A stretch of 64,000 nt of DNA, from positions 3,345,873 to 3,409,872 of the forward strand of contig NZ_CM001489.1 in NCBI RefSeq assembly GCF_000262465.1, written 5' to 3'. The position numbers and the translations under genes are program-made. The DNA comes from Frankia sp. QA3. GTDB taxonomy: Bacteria; Actinomycetota; Actinomycetes; Frankiales; Frankiaceae. The stretch's first letter is position 1. Every line of letters starts with the position of its first letter. Shown here piece after piece: positions 3,573-25,464 of the stretch. The notes beneath the pieces were generated by a model. The model had not been told where the DNA came from. It made no database searches and saw only the letters and a list, made by a program, of their open reading frames with translations.

Positions 3573-4486
3573 CAGAAGTACCCCTCCCGCTTCCGGTCCT
3601 CCATCGCCGCCTCGCTGACCCGGTCGTCGGCCCGGGTCGCGCCCCGCTCGGTGATCCGCGTCGCCGCGACCTCGGCGATGACCTCGTCGACGGTCGCCGC
3701 GGTCGACTCGACCGCCCCGGTGCAGGTGATGTCCCCGACCGTGCGGTAGCGGACCTGGCGCGGCACCACGGCCTCGCCGGCGCGCGGCTGCGTCAGCGGG
3801 GTGACCGCGAGCAGCATGCCGTCGCGCTCGAAGGTCTCGCGGCTGTGCGCGTAGTAGATCGAGGGGATCTCCAGGCGCTCCTGGGCGATGTAGCGCCAGA
3901 TGTCCAGCTCGGTCCAGTTCGACAGCGGGAAGACCCGGATGTGCTCGCCGGGGCGGTGCCGGCCGTTGTAGAGCGACCACAGCTCGGGGCGCTGGTTCTT
4001 GGGGTCCCACTGGCCGAACTCGTCGCGGAAGGAGTACACCCGCTCCTTGGCCCGGGCCTTCTCCTCGTCGCGGCGGGCGCCGCCGAACACCGCGTCGAAC
4101 CGGTTGTCCGTGATCGAGTCGAGCAGCACCGGCGTCTGCAGCTGGTTGCGGGAGGCTCCGGGCCGGGTGTCCTCGGTGAGCTCACCGGCGTCGATCGCCG
4201 CCTGCACGGAGCCGACCACCAGGCGGGCGCCGAGCTCGGCCGCGCGACGGTCCCGGAACTCGAGGACCTCGTCGAAGTTGTGGCCGGTGTCGATGTGCAG
4301 CAGCGGGAAGGGCAGCTTCGCGGGCCAGAACGCCTTCTCGGCCACCCGCAGCATGACGATCGAGTCCTTCCCGCCGCTGAACAGCAGCGCGGGACGCTCG
4401 AACTCGGCCGCCACCTCACGGAAGATGTGGATGGCCTCGGCCTCGAGCATCTGCAGGTGGGTGAGCTCGTAACCCGCGACAGGCAC
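3572..4486 (-). CDS. cysD: CysD, sulfate adenylyltransferase catalytic subunit
   Basis: A 304-residue PP-loop ATP pyrophosphatase-family protein, the catalytic half of the CysDN ATP sulfurylase. The PP-loop motif FSGGKDS is near residue 36, and conserved blocks such as HIDTGHNF, FGGARRDEEKAR and FPLSNWTELDIW are present, as is the C-terminal MEDRKREGYF ending typical of CysD. The start is GTG with a GAGGGG Shine-Dalgarno sequence nine bases upstream. It is the first gene of a two-gene operon with cysN. cysQ lies 201 bases upstream on the same strand and could be co-transcribed. Confidence 0.97.
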   Translation of the reverse strand: MPVAGYELTHLQMLEAEAIHIFREVAAEFERPALLFSGGKDSIVMLRVAEKAFWPAKLPFPLLHIDTGHNFDEVLEFRDRRAAELGARLVVGSVQAAIDAGELTEDTRPGASRNQLQTPVLLDSITDNRFDAVFGGARRDEEKARAKERVYSFRDEFGQWDPKNQRPELWSLYNGRHRPGEHIRVFPLSNWTELDIWRYIAQERLEIPSIYYAHSRETFERDGMLLAVTPLTQPRAGEAVVPRQVRYRTVGDITCTGAVESTAATVDEVIAEVAATRITERGATRADDRVSEAAMEDRKREGYF

Positions 4487-17858: not shown

Positions 17859-18245
17859 TCCATCCGCCCGGGTGGAGGAGGCTCTCACCCGCTCGGAGCG
17901 AGGCGACGTCCGCTATCGATGCGTGCTGGACCGCTCCGACCTCGGCTAGCCCCGACCCCAGCGATCATGGTGTTCCACGAAACCGGGCCCGTTCTGAAGA
18001 TCGGTACTGGCCCCAGGCGGGCCCGGGGCGATCTGCTGGCGCGGGGCGCCATCGGCCGTACCGCGACACCGGGGACAGACGACGCGAGTGGTCTACCGGC
18101 CGGTAACCGCTGCCGTAGGCTAGCCGGTGCCGGCGGTGTCCGCGCCGGTGCTGACCGCCCGCGCGGTCCCGTCGGGCCGGCGCGAGCGGGTCGGCGTCCC
18201 ACGGCGAGGTGCCGGCGGCCGAGAGCCGCCGGTGGGGAGGCCACC
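17859..18245. other. 387-base gap before fadA
   Basis: No gene is evident. The last 20 bases hold the fadA ribosome-binding site GGGGAGG. The remainder presumably contains the fadA-fadB promoter and the end of the RNase D transcript; I see no hairpin or repeat of note. Confidence 0.5.
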
Positions 18246-19466
18246 GTGTTCGGTTCAGCCCGCGGTTCGGTCCGCGACGTGGTCTTCGTCGACGGCGTGC
18301 GCACGCCGTTCGGCAAGGCCAAGGGCGTGTACGCCGAGACCCGGGCCGACGACCTGATCGTCCGGGTGATCCGGGAGCTGCTGCGCCGCAACCCGTCGCT
18401 GCCGCCCGAGCGCATCGACGAGGTGGCGGTCGCGGCCACCACCCAGATCGGCGACCAGGGCCTGACGATCGGCCGGATCGCCGGCGTGCTGGCGGGGCTG
18501 CCCGAGTCGGTGCCCGGCTACGCCGTCGACCGGATGTGCGCCGGGGCCGTGACGGCGGTGACCACGACGGCCTCGTCGATCGCCGTGGGCGCCTACGACG
18601 TCGCCGTAGCCGGCGGGGTGGAGCACATGGGCCGCCATCCCATGGGCGAGGGCGCCGACCTCAACCCGCGGTTCGTCGCCGAGCGGCTGGTCGACCCGTC
18701 CGCGCTGGTCATGGGGTCGACGGCGGAGAACGTGCACGACCGCTTCCCAGCGATCACCCGGGAGCGGGCGGACGCCTACGCCCTGGCCTCCCAGGAGAAG
18801 GTTGCCAAGGCCTACGCGAACGGCCAGATCCAGCCCGACCTGGTCCCGATGGCCGCCCGCCACGCCGACAGCGGCTGGGAGCTGGTCACCGCCGACGAGC
18901 CGCCGCGCCCGACGACGACCCTCGACGGGCTGGCGGGGCTGCGTACCCCGTTCCGGCCGCACGGCCGGGTCACGGCGGGCAACTCCGCCGGGATCAACGA
19001 CGGCGCCACCGGGTGCCTGCTCGCGGCCGCGGAGGTGGCCGCGGAGCTGGGGCTGCCGGCGCGGATGACGCTGGTCGGCTACGGGTTCGCCGGGGTCGCG
19101 CCGGAGGTCATGGGCGTCGGCCCCATCCCGTCGACGGAGAAGGCGCTCGCCCGCACCGGCCTGACGATCGACGACATCGGGCTGTTCGAGCTGAACGAGG
19201 CGTTCGCCGTGCAGGTGCTGGCCTTCCTCGACCATTTCGGCATCGCCGACGACGACCCCCGGGTCAACCAGTACGGCGGAGCGATCGCGCTGGGCCATCC
19301 GCTGGCCTCCAGCGGCGTGCGGCTGATGACCCAGCTGGCCCGGCAGTTCGCCGAGCATCCCGAGGTGCGCTACGGCATGACGGCGATGTGCGTGGGCCTC
19401 GGCATGGGGGCCACCACGATCTGGGAGAACCCCCACCACGGCGCCGCGACCACGGCGACGAGCTGA
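18246..19466 (+). CDS. fadA: Thiolase, acetyl-CoA acyltransferase (FadA)
   Basis: A 406-residue thiolase that cleaves 3-ketoacyl-CoA in fatty-acid beta-oxidation. The acyl-accepting cysteine is in DRMCAGAVTAV near residue 98. The other catalytic blocks are present: NEAFAVQ, GGAIALGHPLASSG and MCVGLGMGA. The start is GTG, chosen for the strong GGGGAGG five bases upstream and because the first strand VRDVVFVDGVRTPFG follows directly. It precedes fadB by 40 bases, and the pair encodes the two subunits of a trifunctional-type beta-oxidation complex. Confidence 0.95.
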   Translation: MFGSARGSVRDVVFVDGVRTPFGKAKGVYAETRADDLIVRVIRELLRRNPSLPPERIDEVAVAATTQIGDQGLTIGRIAGVLAGLPESVPGYAVDRMCAGAVTAVTTTASSIAVGAYDVAVAGGVEHMGRHPMGEGADLNPRFVAERLVDPSALVMGSTAENVHDRFPAITRERADAYALASQEKVAKAYANGQIQPDLVPMAARHADSGWELVTADEPPRPTTTLDGLAGLRTPFRPHGRVTAGNSAGINDGATGCLLAAAEVAAELGLPARMTLVGYGFAGVAPEVMGVGPIPSTEKALARTGLTIDDIGLFELNEAFAVQVLAFLDHFGIADDDPRVNQYGGAIALGHPLASSGVRLMTQLARQFAEHPEVRYGMTAMCVGLGMGATTIWENPHHGAATTATS

Positions 19467-19506
19467 CCGGGCCCTACGCGAGAACCCAGTCCCAGGAGAG
19501 GGCGGC

Positions 19507-21654
19507 ATGACGATCGACGAGGTGACCCTGGACTACCCGGACGAGGTCGTCACGGCCGCGCACGTCCGGTACGTGACACTGCCCGGGGTGGCCGGTCCGG
19601 TCGCCCTCGTCACCCTCGACAACGGCCACGACCACACCCGGCCGAGCACCTTCGGCCCGGCCGGGCTGCGCCGGCTGCTCGCCGCCGTCGACGAGATCTC
19701 CGCGCACGACCCCCCGGTCGCCGCGATCGCCGTGACCGGCAAGCCGTTCATCTTCAGCGTCGGGGCGGACCTGGGCTTCCGGTCGTCGATCACCGAGGCG
19801 GACCGGCTGCGCCCGTCGCTGGACGCGCTCGGCCGCCTCGGCCACGACGCCTTCGCCCGGCTCGGTTCCGGCCGCCTCGACGGACGCAAGGTCCCCACCT
19901 TCGCGCTGGTCAACGGGGCGGCGCTGGGCGGCGGCCTGGAGCTGGCGCTGCACTGCGACTACCGGGCGCTGTCCGCCGGGATTCCCGCGCTCGCCTTCCC
20001 GGAGGTGTTCCTCGGCCTGGTGCCGGCCTGGGGCGGCACCCAGCTGCTGCCGAACCTGATCGGCGCCGACCGGGCGGTGTCCGTCATCATCGACAACGCG
20101 CTCAGCCAGAACCGCACCCTGCGCGGGTCCACGGCGTTCGAGCTGGGCATCGGGGACGTGCTGCTGGAGCCGGCCGACTTCCTGGAGGAGGCGCTGGCCT
20201 GGGTGGGCCGGGTGCTGCGCGGGGAGATCGACCCGGTGGCCGAGCGCCGCCCGGTGGAGCGGGGCGCCGTCTGGGCCGAGGCCGTCGCCCGCGGCCGGAC
20301 GCTGGCCGACGCCAAGCTGCACGGCGCCGCGCCGGCCGCCTACCGGGCCCTCGATCTGATCGCGCTCGCCGAGACCGCCGATCGCGACACCGGCTTCGCC
20401 GCCGAGACCCAGGCGCTGGCCGACCTGTCGGTCAGCGGCGAGCTCGCCGCCGGGCTGTATGCCTTCGACCTGGTCCAGAAGCGGGCGAAGCGGCCGGTCG
20501 GCGGCCCGGATCCGGCGCTGGCCCGCCCGGTCACCAAGGTCGGGGTCGTCGGCGCCGGGCTGATGGCCGCCCAGCTCGCGCTCGTGTTCGCGCACCGGCT
20601 GGAGGTGCCGGTCGTGCTCACCGACATCGACGCCGAGCGTCTCGACGCCGGCGTCGCGAACGTCCACCGGGAGATCGACAACCTGCTGCTGCGCCACCGG
20701 ATCTCCCCCGACCAGGCCAACCGGTACAAGGCCAACGTCACCGGCTCGTTGACCAAAGACGCCTTCGCCGACGCCGACCTGGTCATCGAGGCGGTCTTCG
20801 AGGACCTGGCGGTCAAGCAGGCCGTGTTCGCCGAGCTGGAGGCCGTGGTGGCGCCCACCGCGGTGCTGCTGACGAACACCTCCGCGCTGTCGGTCACCGA
20901 GATGGCCGCGCGGCTGGCCCACCCCGAGCGGGTCGCCGGCCTGCACTTCTTCAACCCGGTGTCCGTGCTGCCGCTCGTCGAGGTGGTCCGCGCGAACCGC
21001 ACCGACGACGCGACGGTCGCCACGACCCTGGCCGTCGCCAGGACGTTGAAGAAGGACGCCGTGCTCGTCGCGGACGCGCCGGCGTTCGTCGTGAACCGCC
21101 TGCTCACCCGCTTCCTCGGTGAGGTGCTGGGCGCCGCGGAGCAGGGCGCGCCGATCGAGCAGGTCGACCACGCCCTGGATCCCCTGGGGCTGCCGATGTC
21201 GCCGCTCGTCCTGCTGTCGCTGGTCGGCCCGGCGGTGGCGCTGCACGTCGCCGAGGCGCTGCACGCCACCTTCCCGGACCGCTTCCGGGCGCCCGCGAGC
21301 CTGGCTCGGCTGGTCGAGGCGGGCCGGGGCTCGGTCTACACCACCGGTCCGGACGGCGCCCAGATCGTCGACCCCGAGGCCGCCGCGGCGCTGCGGTCGG
21401 CTGCGCAACCGCAGCCGCCCACGGCCGCCGAGGTGCGCGAGGCCGCCCTGCGGGCGCTCGCCGAGGAGATCCACCTCATGCTCGCCGAGAAGGTCGTCGC
21501 CGAGGCCGCCGACATCGACCTGTGCATGATCCTCGGCGCCGGCTGGCCGTTCCACCTCGGCGGGATCACCCCCTACCTGGACCGCACCGGCATCAGCGAG
21601 ATCGTCACCGGCGAACGCTTCGCCCCGCCCGGCGTCGCCACCCCGCCCCGCTGA
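19507..21654 (+). CDS. fadB: FadB, enoyl-CoA hydratase/3-hydroxyacyl-CoA dehydrogenase
   Basis: A 715-residue bifunctional beta-oxidation enzyme. Residues about 20-330 form the crotonase domain, with the CoA/oxyanion segments GKPFIFSVGADL and NGAALGGGLELALHCD and the catalytic-glutamate region FPEVFLGLVPAWGGTQLLP. The NAD-binding domain starts at about 343 with KVGVVGAGLMAAQ, followed by HFFNPVSVLPLVEVV, which holds the dehydrogenase histidine, and the C-terminal helical domains. The ATG is preceded by GGAGAGG. It is co-transcribed with fadA. It converges with the HipA-like gene, only nine bases separating the stops. Confidence 0.95.
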   Translation: MTIDEVTLDYPDEVVTAAHVRYVTLPGVAGPVALVTLDNGHDHTRPSTFGPAGLRRLLAAVDEISAHDPPVAAIAVTGKPFIFSVGADLGFRSSITEADRLRPSLDALGRLGHDAFARLGSGRLDGRKVPTFALVNGAALGGGLELALHCDYRALSAGIPALAFPEVFLGLVPAWGGTQLLPNLIGADRAVSVIIDNALSQNRTLRGSTAFELGIGDVLLEPADFLEEALAWVGRVLRGEIDPVAERRPVERGAVWAEAVARGRTLADAKLHGAAPAAYRALDLIALAETADRDTGFAAETQALADLSVSGELAAGLYAFDLVQKRAKRPVGGPDPALARPVTKVGVVGAGLMAAQLALVFAHRLEVPVVLTDIDAERLDAGVANVHREIDNLLLRHRISPDQANRYKANVTGSLTKDAFADADLVIEAVFEDLAVKQAVFAELEAVVAPTAVLLTNTSALSVTEMAARLAHPERVAGLHFFNPVSVLPLVEVVRANRTDDATVATTLAVARTLKKDAVLVADAPAFVVNRLLTRFLGEVLGAAEQGAPIEQVDHALDPLGLPMSPLVLLSLVGPAVALHVAEALHATFPDRFRAPASLARLVEAGRGSVYTTGPDGAQIVDPEAAAALRSAAQPQPPTAAEVREAALRALAEEIHLMLAEKVVAEAADIDLCMILGAGWPFHLGGITPYLDRTGISEIVTGERFAPPGVATPPR

Positions 21655-21663
21655 CCCCAGCGG

Positions 21664-22926
21664 CTACCGGGCCGAGGTCAGCGCCGTTCGCATCCGATCG
21701 ATCCAGTTCCCGATGTCACCGCCGAGCGCGGAACTGCGGGCGAAGGCATCCCGGTGGCGCTCCCACGCCGCCGGGAGCCTCTCGCACACCGCGGACGCGA
21801 CTGCGTGCAGATCCGCCCCGGTCACCCCGAAACGGCGATCGAGCCGCGCTTCGAGCCGCGCGAACGAGGAGAGTCGGACCGAGTCGAACCGCTTGCTGCC
21901 CCCGAGTTTGAGCCCGAGATCGTCGAGGTGCCCGCCCTGTCTGCCGTACACGACGGTCGAAACCAGATCGTAGGCCGGTGAGAGAGTCGGCCGACGCTCG
22001 TCGAGGTAGATCAGCGACCAGTTCTTCAGGTGGGCGTCCCCGTTACCGATCAGCACGTTGAAGGCCAGCCGGCGAGCCATCTCCTGGAGTGCCCGCAGGT
22101 CACGGCCGCGATAGGCCAGCGCCGCCACCGTCTCGAACGTGCCCTCGTACTTCGAGTCCGGATACTTGTCTCGGACCTGGGCGAAGTCCTCAATGTGAAT
22201 CGCCGTCCGATCTCCTTCGCCGCGTCGGTCGAAACGGCGAACCGCATACGCCCATTCCTCGGAGTTCGGCCACATCCGGGACGGCAGGCCCTGAAGCTCG
22301 TCGCGGTGGACGAGCCGGACCTCGGGTACGTCGAGCCCCACCTCGGCGGCGAGCGACATCATCACGAACTCGTTCAGCGGGACCTCGCCGAACCGCTGAT
22401 CAGGAAACTTGACCAACCAGTCACCGTGCTCACCCAGGGCGGGAACGGTAAGACGATCACCAGCGGCCAGCATCGAGAACTTCAGCGCAACCCCAGCCAG
22501 CGAGAATCGCCACGGCGACGCTGTGGCCTCGGAAGAGGCTCCGATCGATCTGTTTAGGCGCTCAGCAGGCCACTCCAAGGCCTCCGCGGCGACCTCCATC
22601 GGGAGAACCTGGACGGCGCCGGGGAGATCATGCCCGACCTGGGCGAGCAGTTCCATCTCCCGGTCGAGCGCGACATCCCGGTCCGCCGCGATCCACTCGC
22701 GTAGCGGCCCCTCAGGCAGCAGGTTCGAGAACCAGCGCGGCAGGCGCAGTGCGGCCGAATACCGACCGCGAAGATCCTCCTCGAATCGCAGACCGAGGAC
22801 GGGACGAGACTCGTCGTTCAGATACTCCTCGGTGAAGGTGAACATCGTGTGGTCTCCGCGCTGCCGCAGAACCCCGACGTGCCGTCCGTGCAGCAGTACC
22901 GCATAGTGATGCTCAGTCGGAGTCAC
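21664..22926 (-). CDS. HipA-family serine/threonine kinase without a HipB partner
   Basis: A 420-residue HipA-type kinase. Residues 8-110 are the N-terminal subdomain (LLHGRHVGVL, FSNLLPEGPLREW). The catalytic core has a P-loop-like SLAGVALKFSM at 142-152, in which the usual Gln-Pro is Ala-Leu; LVKFPDQRFGEVPLNEF; the catalytic loop NVLIGNGDAHLKNW at 290-303 with Asp297; and the metal-binding LSPAYDLVS with Asp320. HipA kinases inhibit growth by phosphorylating translation factors and are normally held by a small DNA-binding HipB encoded just upstream. None exists here: the gene begins with GTG four bases after a DUF262 gene, which I infer to be its functional partner. GC content is lower than in neighbours. 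Confidence 0.9.
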   Translation of the reverse strand: MTPTEHHYAVLLHGRHVGVLRQRGDHTMFTFTEEYLNDESRPVLGLRFEEDLRGRYSAALRLPRWFSNLLPEGPLREWIAADRDVALDREMELLAQVGHDLPGAVQVLPMEVAAEALEWPAERLNRSIGASSEATASPWRFSLAGVALKFSMLAAGDRLTVPALGEHGDWLVKFPDQRFGEVPLNEFVMMSLAAEVGLDVPEVRLVHRDELQGLPSRMWPNSEEWAYAVRRFDRRGEGDRTAIHIEDFAQVRDKYPDSKYEGTFETVAALAYRGRDLRALQEMARRLAFNVLIGNGDAHLKNWSLIYLDERRPTLSPAYDLVSTVVYGRQGGHLDDLGLKLGGSKRFDSVRLSSFARLEARLDRRFGVTGADLHAVASAVCERLPAAWERHRDAFARSSALGGDIGNWIDRMRTALTSAR

Positions 22927-22930
22927 CGCA

Positions 22931-24628
22931 CTACTCGCCCGACTCGGTCAACTCGTCCATATCGAAAGAGTCAAGCGGCGCGGTGTCCTCAAACTTCCAC
23001 TCCGTCATTCGATTAAGAAATACATCAAGATTATTCTCTATGATTTCCTGCCGAGCGCGCAGAAAATCGTCGCGCTGGCCAAGGTCGAGAAGGGAGACGA
23101 CGTTTTCGTCAAGACAGTAGGAAGTGAGCACGTCAGCCCATTCCTGACCGTTCAGGTAAACGGATGGACGGGTCACCGCCTCCAGGAAGCTTTCGAGGGA
23201 CTCCGTCGGGCTCGGAATGAAGAGCCGGGCCGCAGCCCATAGCTGCTGGACGTCCCGGGCTCCGCGCGGGAAAAGACGGTGCACCGCGAGCGCCGCCGTC
23301 GACTGTTCGACGAGCAGCTCCGAAAGATCGTTTTGCCCGTACCGTTCACCAGTAAGCGGAGATCTGGGCTGTAGCCACCACCAGGAGCATAGAATGATCT
23401 TCCCGACCGCCTCGTTCGTGCGGAATCGCACGGCGCTCGGAATCTCCCTCACCGATCGATCCATCGACTTGACAAGTTCCTGCACCGACGTTTCTTCATG
23501 ACCCGGCCGGACCAGAGCACAGAGAATGCGGCTCATCTGGGTGAAGCTGCCCTTGAACACCGTTGGACCACCCACAGCCGCACGCCAGTAGAAACGGCGG
23601 AGCAGGATCCGATTCCGTTCGGTAGGTTCGGGAAAGTGCGCAAAGAATCGAACAAGTACGACGAGCAAGGCCTTGTATGTCAGCAGGGAGAGATGCGGCA
23701 CACCGGCGTCCCGCTGCAAAAATGCGACAGCTCGCACAAGCGCCGCCTCGCTCTCGGCATAAGCCGATTCCTGCGACTCGCCAGGGAAATCCGATGTAAC
23801 CCGCCGGTCACCATCAGCAAACTCGCCACGTATATCACGCATAGGATCAGGGCCACGCCTGGCGAGTATCGAGTGCAGTACCGTGTTTGCATCAATTAGG
23901 CCGAACCCGGTCTGCGCGTCAACGCGCTCAGCGATCCGCGACAGCGAGAGGCGTTGGGCCGAGCCCTCTTCTGGACCGGCAAACAGAGCGGAGAATATCT
24001 CGGCCCGACTCAACCTTTTGCCGAAGTTGTTCATTCGGTCAAAGATGTCGGTAAGGACTTCCTCGTCGTCCTGGCGGACCAGATAGGCTGGGATCTTGTA
24101 CTGGCGAAGCATCTTTGCAATACGTTGCGCCACAGGAAAATACTCTCGGGCACCCCGACCCGAATCAGAGAACCAGTCAATCAGCTCTACGAGATCAAAC
24201 AAAATCGGTAGGGGTATGTAATAATCGTCCATCACCCTGGGGCGATCAACAAATTTCTGAGCCTTGAGATCGTAGTGCACAGAGAACGGGCTGTGCCTGT
24301 TCCCCTCGGGATGCAGCGCGTTGGCAATACTCGTGATGCGCTGCTGACCATCGACGACCCAGAAGGTGTTTTCACCTTCTGGGGCTGCAATCCGCAACTC
24401 CCCCAGCGTGACAGACTCGGCGCCAGAATGCCGAACCCAAAGCAGCAAGCTGCCGATTGGATATCCCTTGATGATGCTGTCGAAAAGCCGGACGACATCC
24501 TGGCTTCCCCAGCGGAAGTCACGCTGGAAATGAGGGACCCGGACCCGACCCTGCCAGGCCTGGGCGACGAGATCCTCCAACTCGTACGTCGTAGCACTGG
24601 GTTGGGTGCCGAGTCCGTCGGTCGACAT
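22931..24628 (-). CDS. DUF262 (GmrS/ParB-like) protein in operon with HipA kinase
   Basis: A 565-residue protein. The N-terminal 250 residues are a DUF262 domain with VPHFQRDFRW at 31-40, KGYPIGSLLLW near 54-64, VVDGQQRITSI at 91-101 and IFDRMNNFGKRLSRAEIFSA. DUF262 domains occur in GmrSD-type modification-dependent restriction enzymes and SspE. I see no C-terminal DUF1524 HNH nuclease signature. The rest is helical and unrecognised. The ATG at 24628 has GAAGG nine bases upstream; an ATG three codons earlier is less well placed. Codon use and base composition are clearly more AT-rich than the surrounding genes, suggesting horizontal transfer. It is the first gene of a two-gene unit with the HipA kinase. 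Confidence 0.88.
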   Translation of the reverse strand: MSTDGLGTQPSATTYELEDLVAQAWQGRVRVPHFQRDFRWGSQDVVRLFDSIIKGYPIGSLLLWVRHSGAESVTLGELRIAAPEGENTFWVVDGQQRITSIANALHPEGNRHSPFSVHYDLKAQKFVDRPRVMDDYYIPLPILFDLVELIDWFSDSGRGAREYFPVAQRIAKMLRQYKIPAYLVRQDDEEVLTDIFDRMNNFGKRLSRAEIFSALFAGPEEGSAQRLSLSRIAERVDAQTGFGLIDANTVLHSILARRGPDPMRDIRGEFADGDRRVTSDFPGESQESAYAESEAALVRAVAFLQRDAGVPHLSLLTYKALLVVLVRFFAHFPEPTERNRILLRRFYWRAAVGGPTVFKGSFTQMSRILCALVRPGHEETSVQELVKSMDRSVREIPSAVRFRTNEAVGKIILCSWWWLQPRSPLTGERYGQNDLSELLVEQSTAALAVHRLFPRGARDVQQLWAAARLFIPSPTESLESFLEAVTRPSVYLNGQEWADVLTSYCLDENVVSLLDLGQRDDFLRARQEIIENNLDVFLNRMTEWKFEDTAPLDSFDMDELTESGE

Positions 24629-24801
24629 GGCAACCATCCTTCACGTTACGAGCGAACGGCCGCCCCGCGCCCGACACTGCCCTACGAGGACTCGTCTCGA
24701 CCCAACGACGCAGCGAGTGATGACCACCTTACTGGCCTGCCGAGACGCCGAGGCCCGGGCCGATGCTGTGGGCCAACGACGAGTGGCTCATGCTAGACAA
24801 A

Positions 24802-24820
24802 GTAGTGAGTGGCCACTACC
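24802..24820. promoter_or_regulatory. TetR operator before the tetR gene
   Basis: GTAGTGAGTGGCCACTACC contains the inverted half-sites GTAGTG and CACTAC. It ends eight bases before the chosen TetR start. A closely matching copy, 16 of 19 bases identical, lies before the exporter gene at 25525-25543. This strongly suggests autoregulation by the encoded TetR protein. Confidence 0.8.
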
Positions 24821-24828
24821 TTAGGGGC

Positions 24829-25464
24829 GTGGCTACACGGACAGGGGGCAGTGGGCGGATGAGCGCCGAGCAGCGGCGGGCGAGCGTGCTCGCCGCGGCC
24901 GTCGTGGAGTTCGCCCACGGCGGGTTGACCGGCACGTCGACGGAGTCGATCGCCGAGCGGGCCGGCATCTCCCAGCCGTACCTGTTCCGGCTGTACCCGA
25001 CGAAGAAGGCGCTGTTCCTCGCCGTCATCGAGGACACCTTCCGCCGGACCGCGACCCACTTCGAGCGGGCCGCCGGCGAGCTGACCGGCGAGGCCGCGCT
25101 GGACGCGATGAAGGAGTCCTACCAGGAGCTGCTGGCAGACCCGACGTATCTGCTGAACCAGCTGCAGGCCTACTCCGGCTGCTACGACCCGGACGTCCAG
25201 GTCACGACCCGTGCCGGATTCCACCGGCTGTGGGACACCGTGAGCCGCGTGACCGGCCTGCCGATCGACGAGATCCGGCTGTTCTTCGCCTACGGCATGC
25301 TTTTCAACATCATCGCGGCGATGGACCTCGCCGTCCTCGACGAACAGTGGGCGCAGCTGATCTGCCTTGCGGCACCGCCGGGCTCGGCCGCCAGCGTCCT
25401 GAGACCCGACGCGCCGAGCCCCGACCTTCCGGGGCCCGGCGCCCTGGAGCCCCACACCACCTGA
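24829..25464 (+). CDS. TetR-family transcriptional regulator
   Basis: A 211-residue repressor. The N-terminal helix-turn-helix is evident: VLAAAVVEFAHGGLTGTST, then SIAERAGISQPYLFRLYPTKKALF at about residues 39-62. The remaining helical domain is the ligand-binding part and does not reveal the ligand; the tail is Pro-rich. I chose GTG at 24829, so that the operator at 24802-24820 lies outside the gene; an ATG at 24763 would place the operator inside the coding region. It is followed on the same strand by a DHA2 exporter that carries the same operator, so it very probably represses both. Confidence 0.92.
   Translation: MATRTGGSGRMSAEQRRASVLAAAVVEFAHGGLTGTSTESIAERAGISQPYLFRLYPTKKALFLAVIEDTFRRTATHFERAAGELTGEAALDAMKESYQELLADPTYLLNQLQAYSGCYDPDVQVTTRAGFHRLWDTVSRVTGLPIDEIRLFFAYGMLFNIIAAMDLAVLDEQWAQLICLAAPPGSAASVLRPDAPSPDLPGPGALEPHTT

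Follow-up and report, generated by a model that had tools for sequence, protein, structure and literature searches.

In hipBA operons, a full HipA kinase with an N-terminal Couple_hipA domain and a kinase core is encoded next to the helix-turn-helix (HTH) protein HipB, the partner gene lying upstream and overlapping the kinase gene or close to it. We analysed a 64,000-nucleotide stretch of Frankia sp. QA3 (NZ_CM001489.1, positions 3,345,873 to 3,409,872; hereafter the window) in which a HipA gene has this same architecture and arrangement while a DUF262 protein sits in the slot of HipB. Ten Hip gene organisations are given in PMC8262856 and, in the parts of that article examined, DUF262 is not among them; the DUF262-HipA pair is a recurrent organisation that is likewise absent from those parts of the published Hip tree. 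A HipA-family kinase beside a non-HipB partner is also found in HipA-DUF3037 (DS-6/HipAD; PDC-M66 in PADLOC, version 2.0.0). Passages of PMC12548924 and PMC13092281 describe this system as antiphage and its kinase as tolerated only with the partner, and those of PMC12548924 add that removal of the partner is toxic and that defence against phage Bas51 depends on the kinase. The partner there is DUF3037/DUF1829, whereas here it is DUF262: 39/39 partners match GmrSD_N, and none of the eight families found at E values up to 0.1 is DUF3037. Since HipA-DUF3037 is a published antiphage HipA with a non-HipB partner, the pair is less new as a module than the initial annotation of the window had supposed.

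On the other side, the DUF262 protein of the window shares with BrxU, SspE and DndI, by fold comparison, a DUF262 nucleoside triphosphatase (NTPase) and a DUF1524-like fold. In SspE, according to passages of PMC9646914, sensing of a DNA mark by the DUF262 NTPase switches the nuclease fused to it. The pair differs from BrxU, GmrSD, SspE and DndI in that the HNH motif is gone and that a separate gene, for a kinase, is proposed to supply the effector. DUF262 proteins also belong to the defence operons ptuXYZ, Menshen, Dazbog and PD-T4-2, with other effectors such as the BECR RNase ptuZ (ptuXYZ, passages of PMC11980606) or a predicted OLD nuclease (Menshen); passages of PMC10952713 state that Menshen, Dazbog and PD-T4-2 are without DUF1524. 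The PADLOC model PDC-M55C is itself a DUF262 protein, matched by that of the window over its full length (5.2e-57). PDC-M55 was nevertheless ruled out as the same system by its different partners: at L151 these are PDC-M55A (AAA ATPase-like) and PDC-M55B, with no HipA, while the DUF262 gene of the window is adjoined by HipA and TetR genes, and no PDC-M55 match was found among the six window neighbours scanned. The best PDC-M55C match, L151/L116, is likewise devoid of an intact HxxP, a hint that DUF262 proteins with a dead nuclease and an outsourced effector may be a more general pattern. The window HipA matches only PDC-M03A in PADLOC, weakly. No description of a DUF262-HipA pair was found in the titles, abstract beginnings and passages covered of the open-licence PMC literature, preprints lying outside that scope.

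The DUF262 gene and, four bases further on, the complete HipA gene were both found as annotated on the minus strand (Table 1). GmrSD_N (1.2e-30) is the sole family above the Pfam cut-off in the first protein, and the second matches HipA_C (2.7e-46) and Couple_hipA (2.9e-22), both above their cut-offs. The pair is indeed more AT-rich than its neighbours, with guanine-cytosine (GC) contents of 66% (HipA) and 58% (DUF262) against 74.5%, 69% and 75% for the flanking fadB-like, TetR and MFS transporter genes, and third-position values (GC3) of 0.80 and 0.67 against 0.97, 0.92 and 0.95. As a whole it has 61.6% GC versus 73.8% for the window, and every lowest-GC 3-kb segment of the 64 kb overlaps it. 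Both proteins are single in the one-contig genome of 7.59 Mb, the only match to HipA_C and the only match to the DUF262 query being the two members of the pair.

Recurrence of the pair was studied by scanning 84,980 species, each represented by a single genome, with a sequence pattern; this reaches close relatives only and gave 54 confirmed DUF262 relatives. A HipA open reading frame (ORF) or remnant lies directly downstream on the same strand in 49/54, of which 43 are intact, one is cut by a contig end (L050) and five are broken (L014, L021, L030, L046, L049). No downstream HipA was found at three loci (L016, L033, L039), and two others (L004, L056) run off their contig, so that linkage is not judgeable there. 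The frames overlap in 26/43 intact pairs, counting L053, whose start is doubtful; leaving L053 out, 31 of the 43 are at most 10 bases apart, and the widest gap is 129 bases. The hosts include many Actinobacteria, metagenome-assembled genomes (MAGs) of Methylococcaceae and Chromatiaceae, Leptolyngbya and a Polyangiaceae MAG, and the pair is also carried by two plasmids of Azospirillum, of which one is conjugative. The DUF262 protein is 96-99% identical in Frankia sp. AiPs1 and F. torreyi CpI1. A second, deeper DUF262-HipA group with a divergent tail was observed in the same host family (L064-L067, L154, L159; G006, G010, G031, G032).

The linkage is also seen from the HipA side. A HipA search covering 35 genomes from the order and 396 from the phylum gave 13 matches above 200 bits besides that of the window (40-95% identity, three broken), the next match scoring 100 bits. 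DUF262 is directly upstream in 12/13, and the thirteenth (L059) begins at a contig end. No DUF262 was found at a HipA fragment of 97 bits (L076, residues 334-420), nor within about 1.5 kb on each side, less at contig ends, of 43 loci with weaker HipAs. The pairing is thus conserved in other genomes, as a two-gene unit without hipB, and is far beyond chance. That two independent genes merely travel together with no functional contact is very improbable given this linkage from both sides, the overlap of frames, the congruence of the two trees described below and the spread over several phyla.

What stands in the place of DUF262 elsewhere was judged from more distant HipAs. As a control, 26 ORFs upstream of 25 weaker HipAs were searched, giving 21 HTH_3 and 4 Couple_hipA matches (HipB and HipS, respectively), which indicates that the same profile method detects HipB where it is present. 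A HipA match was obtained in 667 plasmid records; nine non-Azospirillum ones, from alphaproteobacteria and one acidobacterium, were opened among the matches listed (36-47% identity). The upstream gene is annotated as HTH/XRE in 8/9, and the upstream ORF of the unannotated ninth matches HTH_3. Since an HTH gene occupies the same slot in 9/9 of these close plasmid HipAs, the partner has been exchanged. The DUF262 protein therefore holds the operon slot of HipB, which bears out the positional half of the suggestion that it takes HipB's place, and a HipB-type protein as the true partner is not supported, as far as gene order shows. The accompanying statement that no HTH antitoxin gene exists around the pair needs rewording: there is no HipB, but a TetR-family HTH gene, not HipB-like, lies nearby. 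It belongs to the site rather than to the pair, because it adjoins the fadB-like gene in pair-less Frankia genomes as well.

In a tree of 87 HipA rows, 53 DUF262-linked HipAs and the nine HTH-linked plasmid HipAs form one clade (100/99). Within it are a DUF262-linked group of 46 rows (99/94), another of seven rows that includes Azospirillum (96/92) and the HTH-linked group (100/97), whose branching order relative to the two others the tree leaves open; the approximately unbiased test does not reject a tree that unites all DUF262-linked HipAs in a single clade (p-AU 0.354), and this clade appears in 26% of bootstraps. The 58 HipA-clade DUF262 proteins also form one clade (100/99) against 19 other DUF262s, hand-picked in Actinobacteria from 30 loci, the rest of which were HipA pairs, fragments or unpicked. 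The three HipA-less DUF262s take three tree positions, of which the starred branches require at least two. Distances in the DUF262 and HipA trees correlate (r 0.93 for 51 pairs; 0.82 when restricted to the 46 of the large group), and 0/2000 permutations reach the observed r in either set, so that the two proteins have long been inherited together. Most simply, these sequences would trace back to a single pairing event, an exchange of HipB for DUF262.

The kinase is complete. The annotated catalytic-loop Asp297 and metal-site Asp320 are present and, together with Ser142, Lys173 and Asn302, invariant in all 34 intact HipAs aligned; we take Ser142 to be the counterpart of Ser150 in E. coli HipA. 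Couple_hipA is fused to the kinase in 34/34, and no split of the HipS type (hipBST) was found among them. We propose that HipA is the toxin, or effector, of the unit.

The DUF262 protein, in turn, keeps the NTPase motif and has lost the nuclease motif. The DGQQR motif, whose pocket role is described in passages of PMC8565348 and PMC9646914, also occurs in 5/7 extra divergent DUF262 rows. At the place of the (D/H)HxxP nuclease motif, Arg454 occupies the column of the catalytic His in the window protein, and the motif is present in 0/58 HipA-clade rows versus 17/19 other DUF262 rows. DNA cutting by HipA-clade DUF262 proteins, one of the activities first envisaged, is therefore unlikely, judging from their residues. 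The protein ends in a conserved stretch, W547-D561, in which E550, T552 and L555 are nearly invariant and which is probably flexible, the last two blocks of the model having a predicted local distance difference test (pLDDT) score of 54 and 48. E[DN][TS] occurs within the last 75 residues in 50/50 group-1 HipA-linked rows, four of them with a broken HipA, and in 0/5 group-2, 0/3 HipA-less and 0/19 other rows, group-2 tails showing variants such as RPPL/RPSI. A first tail pattern was found in 41/48 main, 6/7 extra, 1/3 HipA-less and 0/19 other rows, and a second in 48/48, 2/7, 0/3 and 0/19; the motif was not found in the HipA-less L033 and L039. This distribution suggests that the tail may be a kinase-binding or kinase-modified peptide, so that it is a candidate kinase contact, pseudosubstrate or substrate. 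The near invariance of Thr552 in a low-pLDDT tail that mostly tracks the kinase would also suit reversed roles, in which HipA is regulatory and phosphorylates this tail to switch DUF262 as the real effector. We consider this improbable, because the nuclease motif is gone in 58/58, so that an effector activity is not evident, and the part usually lost is HipA and not DUF262.

We favour, as probable though well short of certain, a model in which HipB has given way to a BrxU/SspE-like DUF262 NTPase that is nuclease-dead and serves as restraint and sensor, the effector being the kinase instead of the nuclease. The DUF262 protein is the natural restraint because it holds HipB's slot, and the kinase the natural effector because DUF262 no longer has its nuclease motif and is linked to a kinase gene; the role proposed for DUF262 is thus that of HipB replacement and sensor. 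At rest, it would bind HipA, probably through the C-terminal tail, and hold it inactive. On meeting its ligand, which analogy suggests to be modified or foreign DNA, the DUF262 protein would change shape through NTP hydrolysis and free HipA. The kinase would then phosphorylate a protein of the host, perhaps an aminoacyl-tRNA synthetase as in analogous cases; growth would stop and the infection abort. HipA would then do the job of the fused HNH nuclease of BrxU and SspE. The sensing step and the phage role are put forward by analogy, and the more specific proposal, that DUF262 does not cut but releases a translation-halting HipA upon reading foreign DNA or a chemical mark, is more tentative, and to us somewhat less likely to hold than to fail. 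If true, this kinase-coupled type IV immunity would be a branch born of a HipB-for-DUF262 exchange, with the job of the dead HNH nuclease outsourced. The pair links persistence-type kinases with sensors of modification-dependent restriction, opens the question of how HipA kinases couple to infection sensing and bears on DUF262 as a general NTP-driven switch with interchangeable effectors (nuclease, ATPase, RNase, kinase).

Several observations weigh against the model of a sensing DUF262 restraint. Few of the 98 neighbour proteins scanned (PADLOC, Pfam) match defence models, a count that stands without a random-region control. Only four weak matches (23-34% identity) came from phage records, and a phage origin was rejected after viral-contig scans with both alignments, in which 8 and 5 stretches matched the patterns and none was confirmed. 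The tail pattern was defined after viewing the alignment, with counts made later and near-identical rows included; the five group-2 proteins do not have it, and the HipA-less L016 keeps ADTPPL, which a looser tail pattern matches. Two of the broken HipAs are from Thiosymbion and one from a Candidatus Frankia, hosts in which a decaying genome or a faulty assembly may account for the damage; at L049 the DUF262 is shortened as well as the HipA broken, in F. torreyi CpI1 it is the DUF262 frame that changes, close to the end of a contig, and HipA that is open, and at the fadB-TetR site of G006 a HipA remnant was found without DUF262.

The 98 proteins were part of 171 selected, 12 loci having been excluded because they were near-duplicates, lay at contig edges or represented the shared Frankia site. 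Among the matches listed (25/40 PADLOC families; 25 of 112 families for Pfam) are pPIWI_RE, Wadjet JetC, JetD, DrmMI, PDC-S48, a type IIG enzyme and a RecD-like model, one protein each; two SspA/DndA matches were read as ordinary cysteine desulfurases and set aside. Of the six window neighbours, five are without PADLOC match and an ORF read as ribonuclease D-like weakly matches BrxH. Hence, of the predicted recurrence in defence islands without hipB, the pairing recurs but the defence-island context is weak. Largely housekeeping surroundings among the proteins scanned, two plasmid copies, a DUF262 kept where HipA is lost or broken (8 loci), as for an antitoxin outliving its toxin, and the presence in a relative (G012), at this very site, of a HipA-like kinase beside an XRE-like gene all suit a plain toxin-antitoxin, in which DUF262 merely neutralises HipA without sensing and the unit persists by addiction. 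We regard this as unlikely, since 568 residues with an invariant NTP-binding motif would be costly for a mere antitoxin and other DUF262 proteins work in phage defence (passages of PMC10952713). At the HipA-less locus L016:3642-6704, a pPIWI_RE defence gene was observed directly upstream of DUF262.

Table 1. Features of the DUF262-HipA locus and of the corresponding slot in G012 (window positions unless a locus is named).
Feature	Position	Strand	Remark
HipA-family Ser/Thr kinase gene, second of unit	21664..22926	-	complete, 420 aa, GTG start
Asp320, kinase metal site	21967..21969	-	HipA alignment
Asp297, kinase catalytic loop	22036..22038	-	HipA alignment
Ser142, Gly-rich loop	22501..22503	-	invariant in 34/34 aligned HipAs
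DUF262 (GmrSD_N) protein gene, first of unit	22931..24637	-	568 aa; BrxU/SspE-like, nuclease motif lost
Conserved C-terminal tail W547-D561 (WKFEDTAPLDSFDMD)	22955..22999	-	low pLDDT
C-terminal half, residues about 220-549	22991..23980	-	DUF1524-like by fold comparison with BrxU, SspE
HRLFP, residues 453-457	23267..23281	-	place of (D/H)HxxP nuclease motif
DUF262/GmrSD_N NTPase domain, residues 20-219	23981..24580	-	Pfam
DGQQR NTP-pocket motif, residues 96-100	24338..24352	-	invariant in the 39 sequences of alignment A1
TetR-family HTH gene near pair	24763..25464	+	not HipB-like
HipA-like kinase frame and XRE-like ORF in G012	L201:2727-4607 and 3881-4210 (G012:C20)	-	

The pair is flanked by a fadB-like gene, a thiolase gene, the TetR regulator and an MFS transporter, and the flanking genes were searched for in 13 genomes of the genus. 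The pair was observed between these genes in five of them: G000, G001 (where HipA is disrupted), G007 (HipA with an inner stop), G009, whose contig breaks off within the fadB-like gene, and G011, where it is spread over two contigs and the DUF262 frame changes near a contig end. The remnant of G006 (L198:1338-1595, G006:C23) corresponds to the C-terminal residues 335-420 of HipA. No trace of the pair was found at the site in G002, G005 and G008, and G003, G004 and G010 are not judgeable. This presence and absence at one site, together with the low GC, would fit lateral gain of the pair followed by loss. In G012, the fadB-TetR slot is filled by a different HipA-like gene, a 627-codon frame (E 6.9e-10 with the HipA profile) whose nearest solved structure is HipT (1.2e-5), with an ORF just upstream on the same strand that is XRE-like by reading of its sequence. 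Because a hipBA-like unit occupies the same slot, the two kinds of unit may be functionally equivalent. In three Saccharomonospora loci (L041, L042, L043; 9.9-15.6 kb), thiolase and enoyl-CoA hydratase genes occur some 4 kb away from the pair and are relatives of those next to it in Frankia (window 17919-21654), which may reflect a shared site or a recurrent insertion place.

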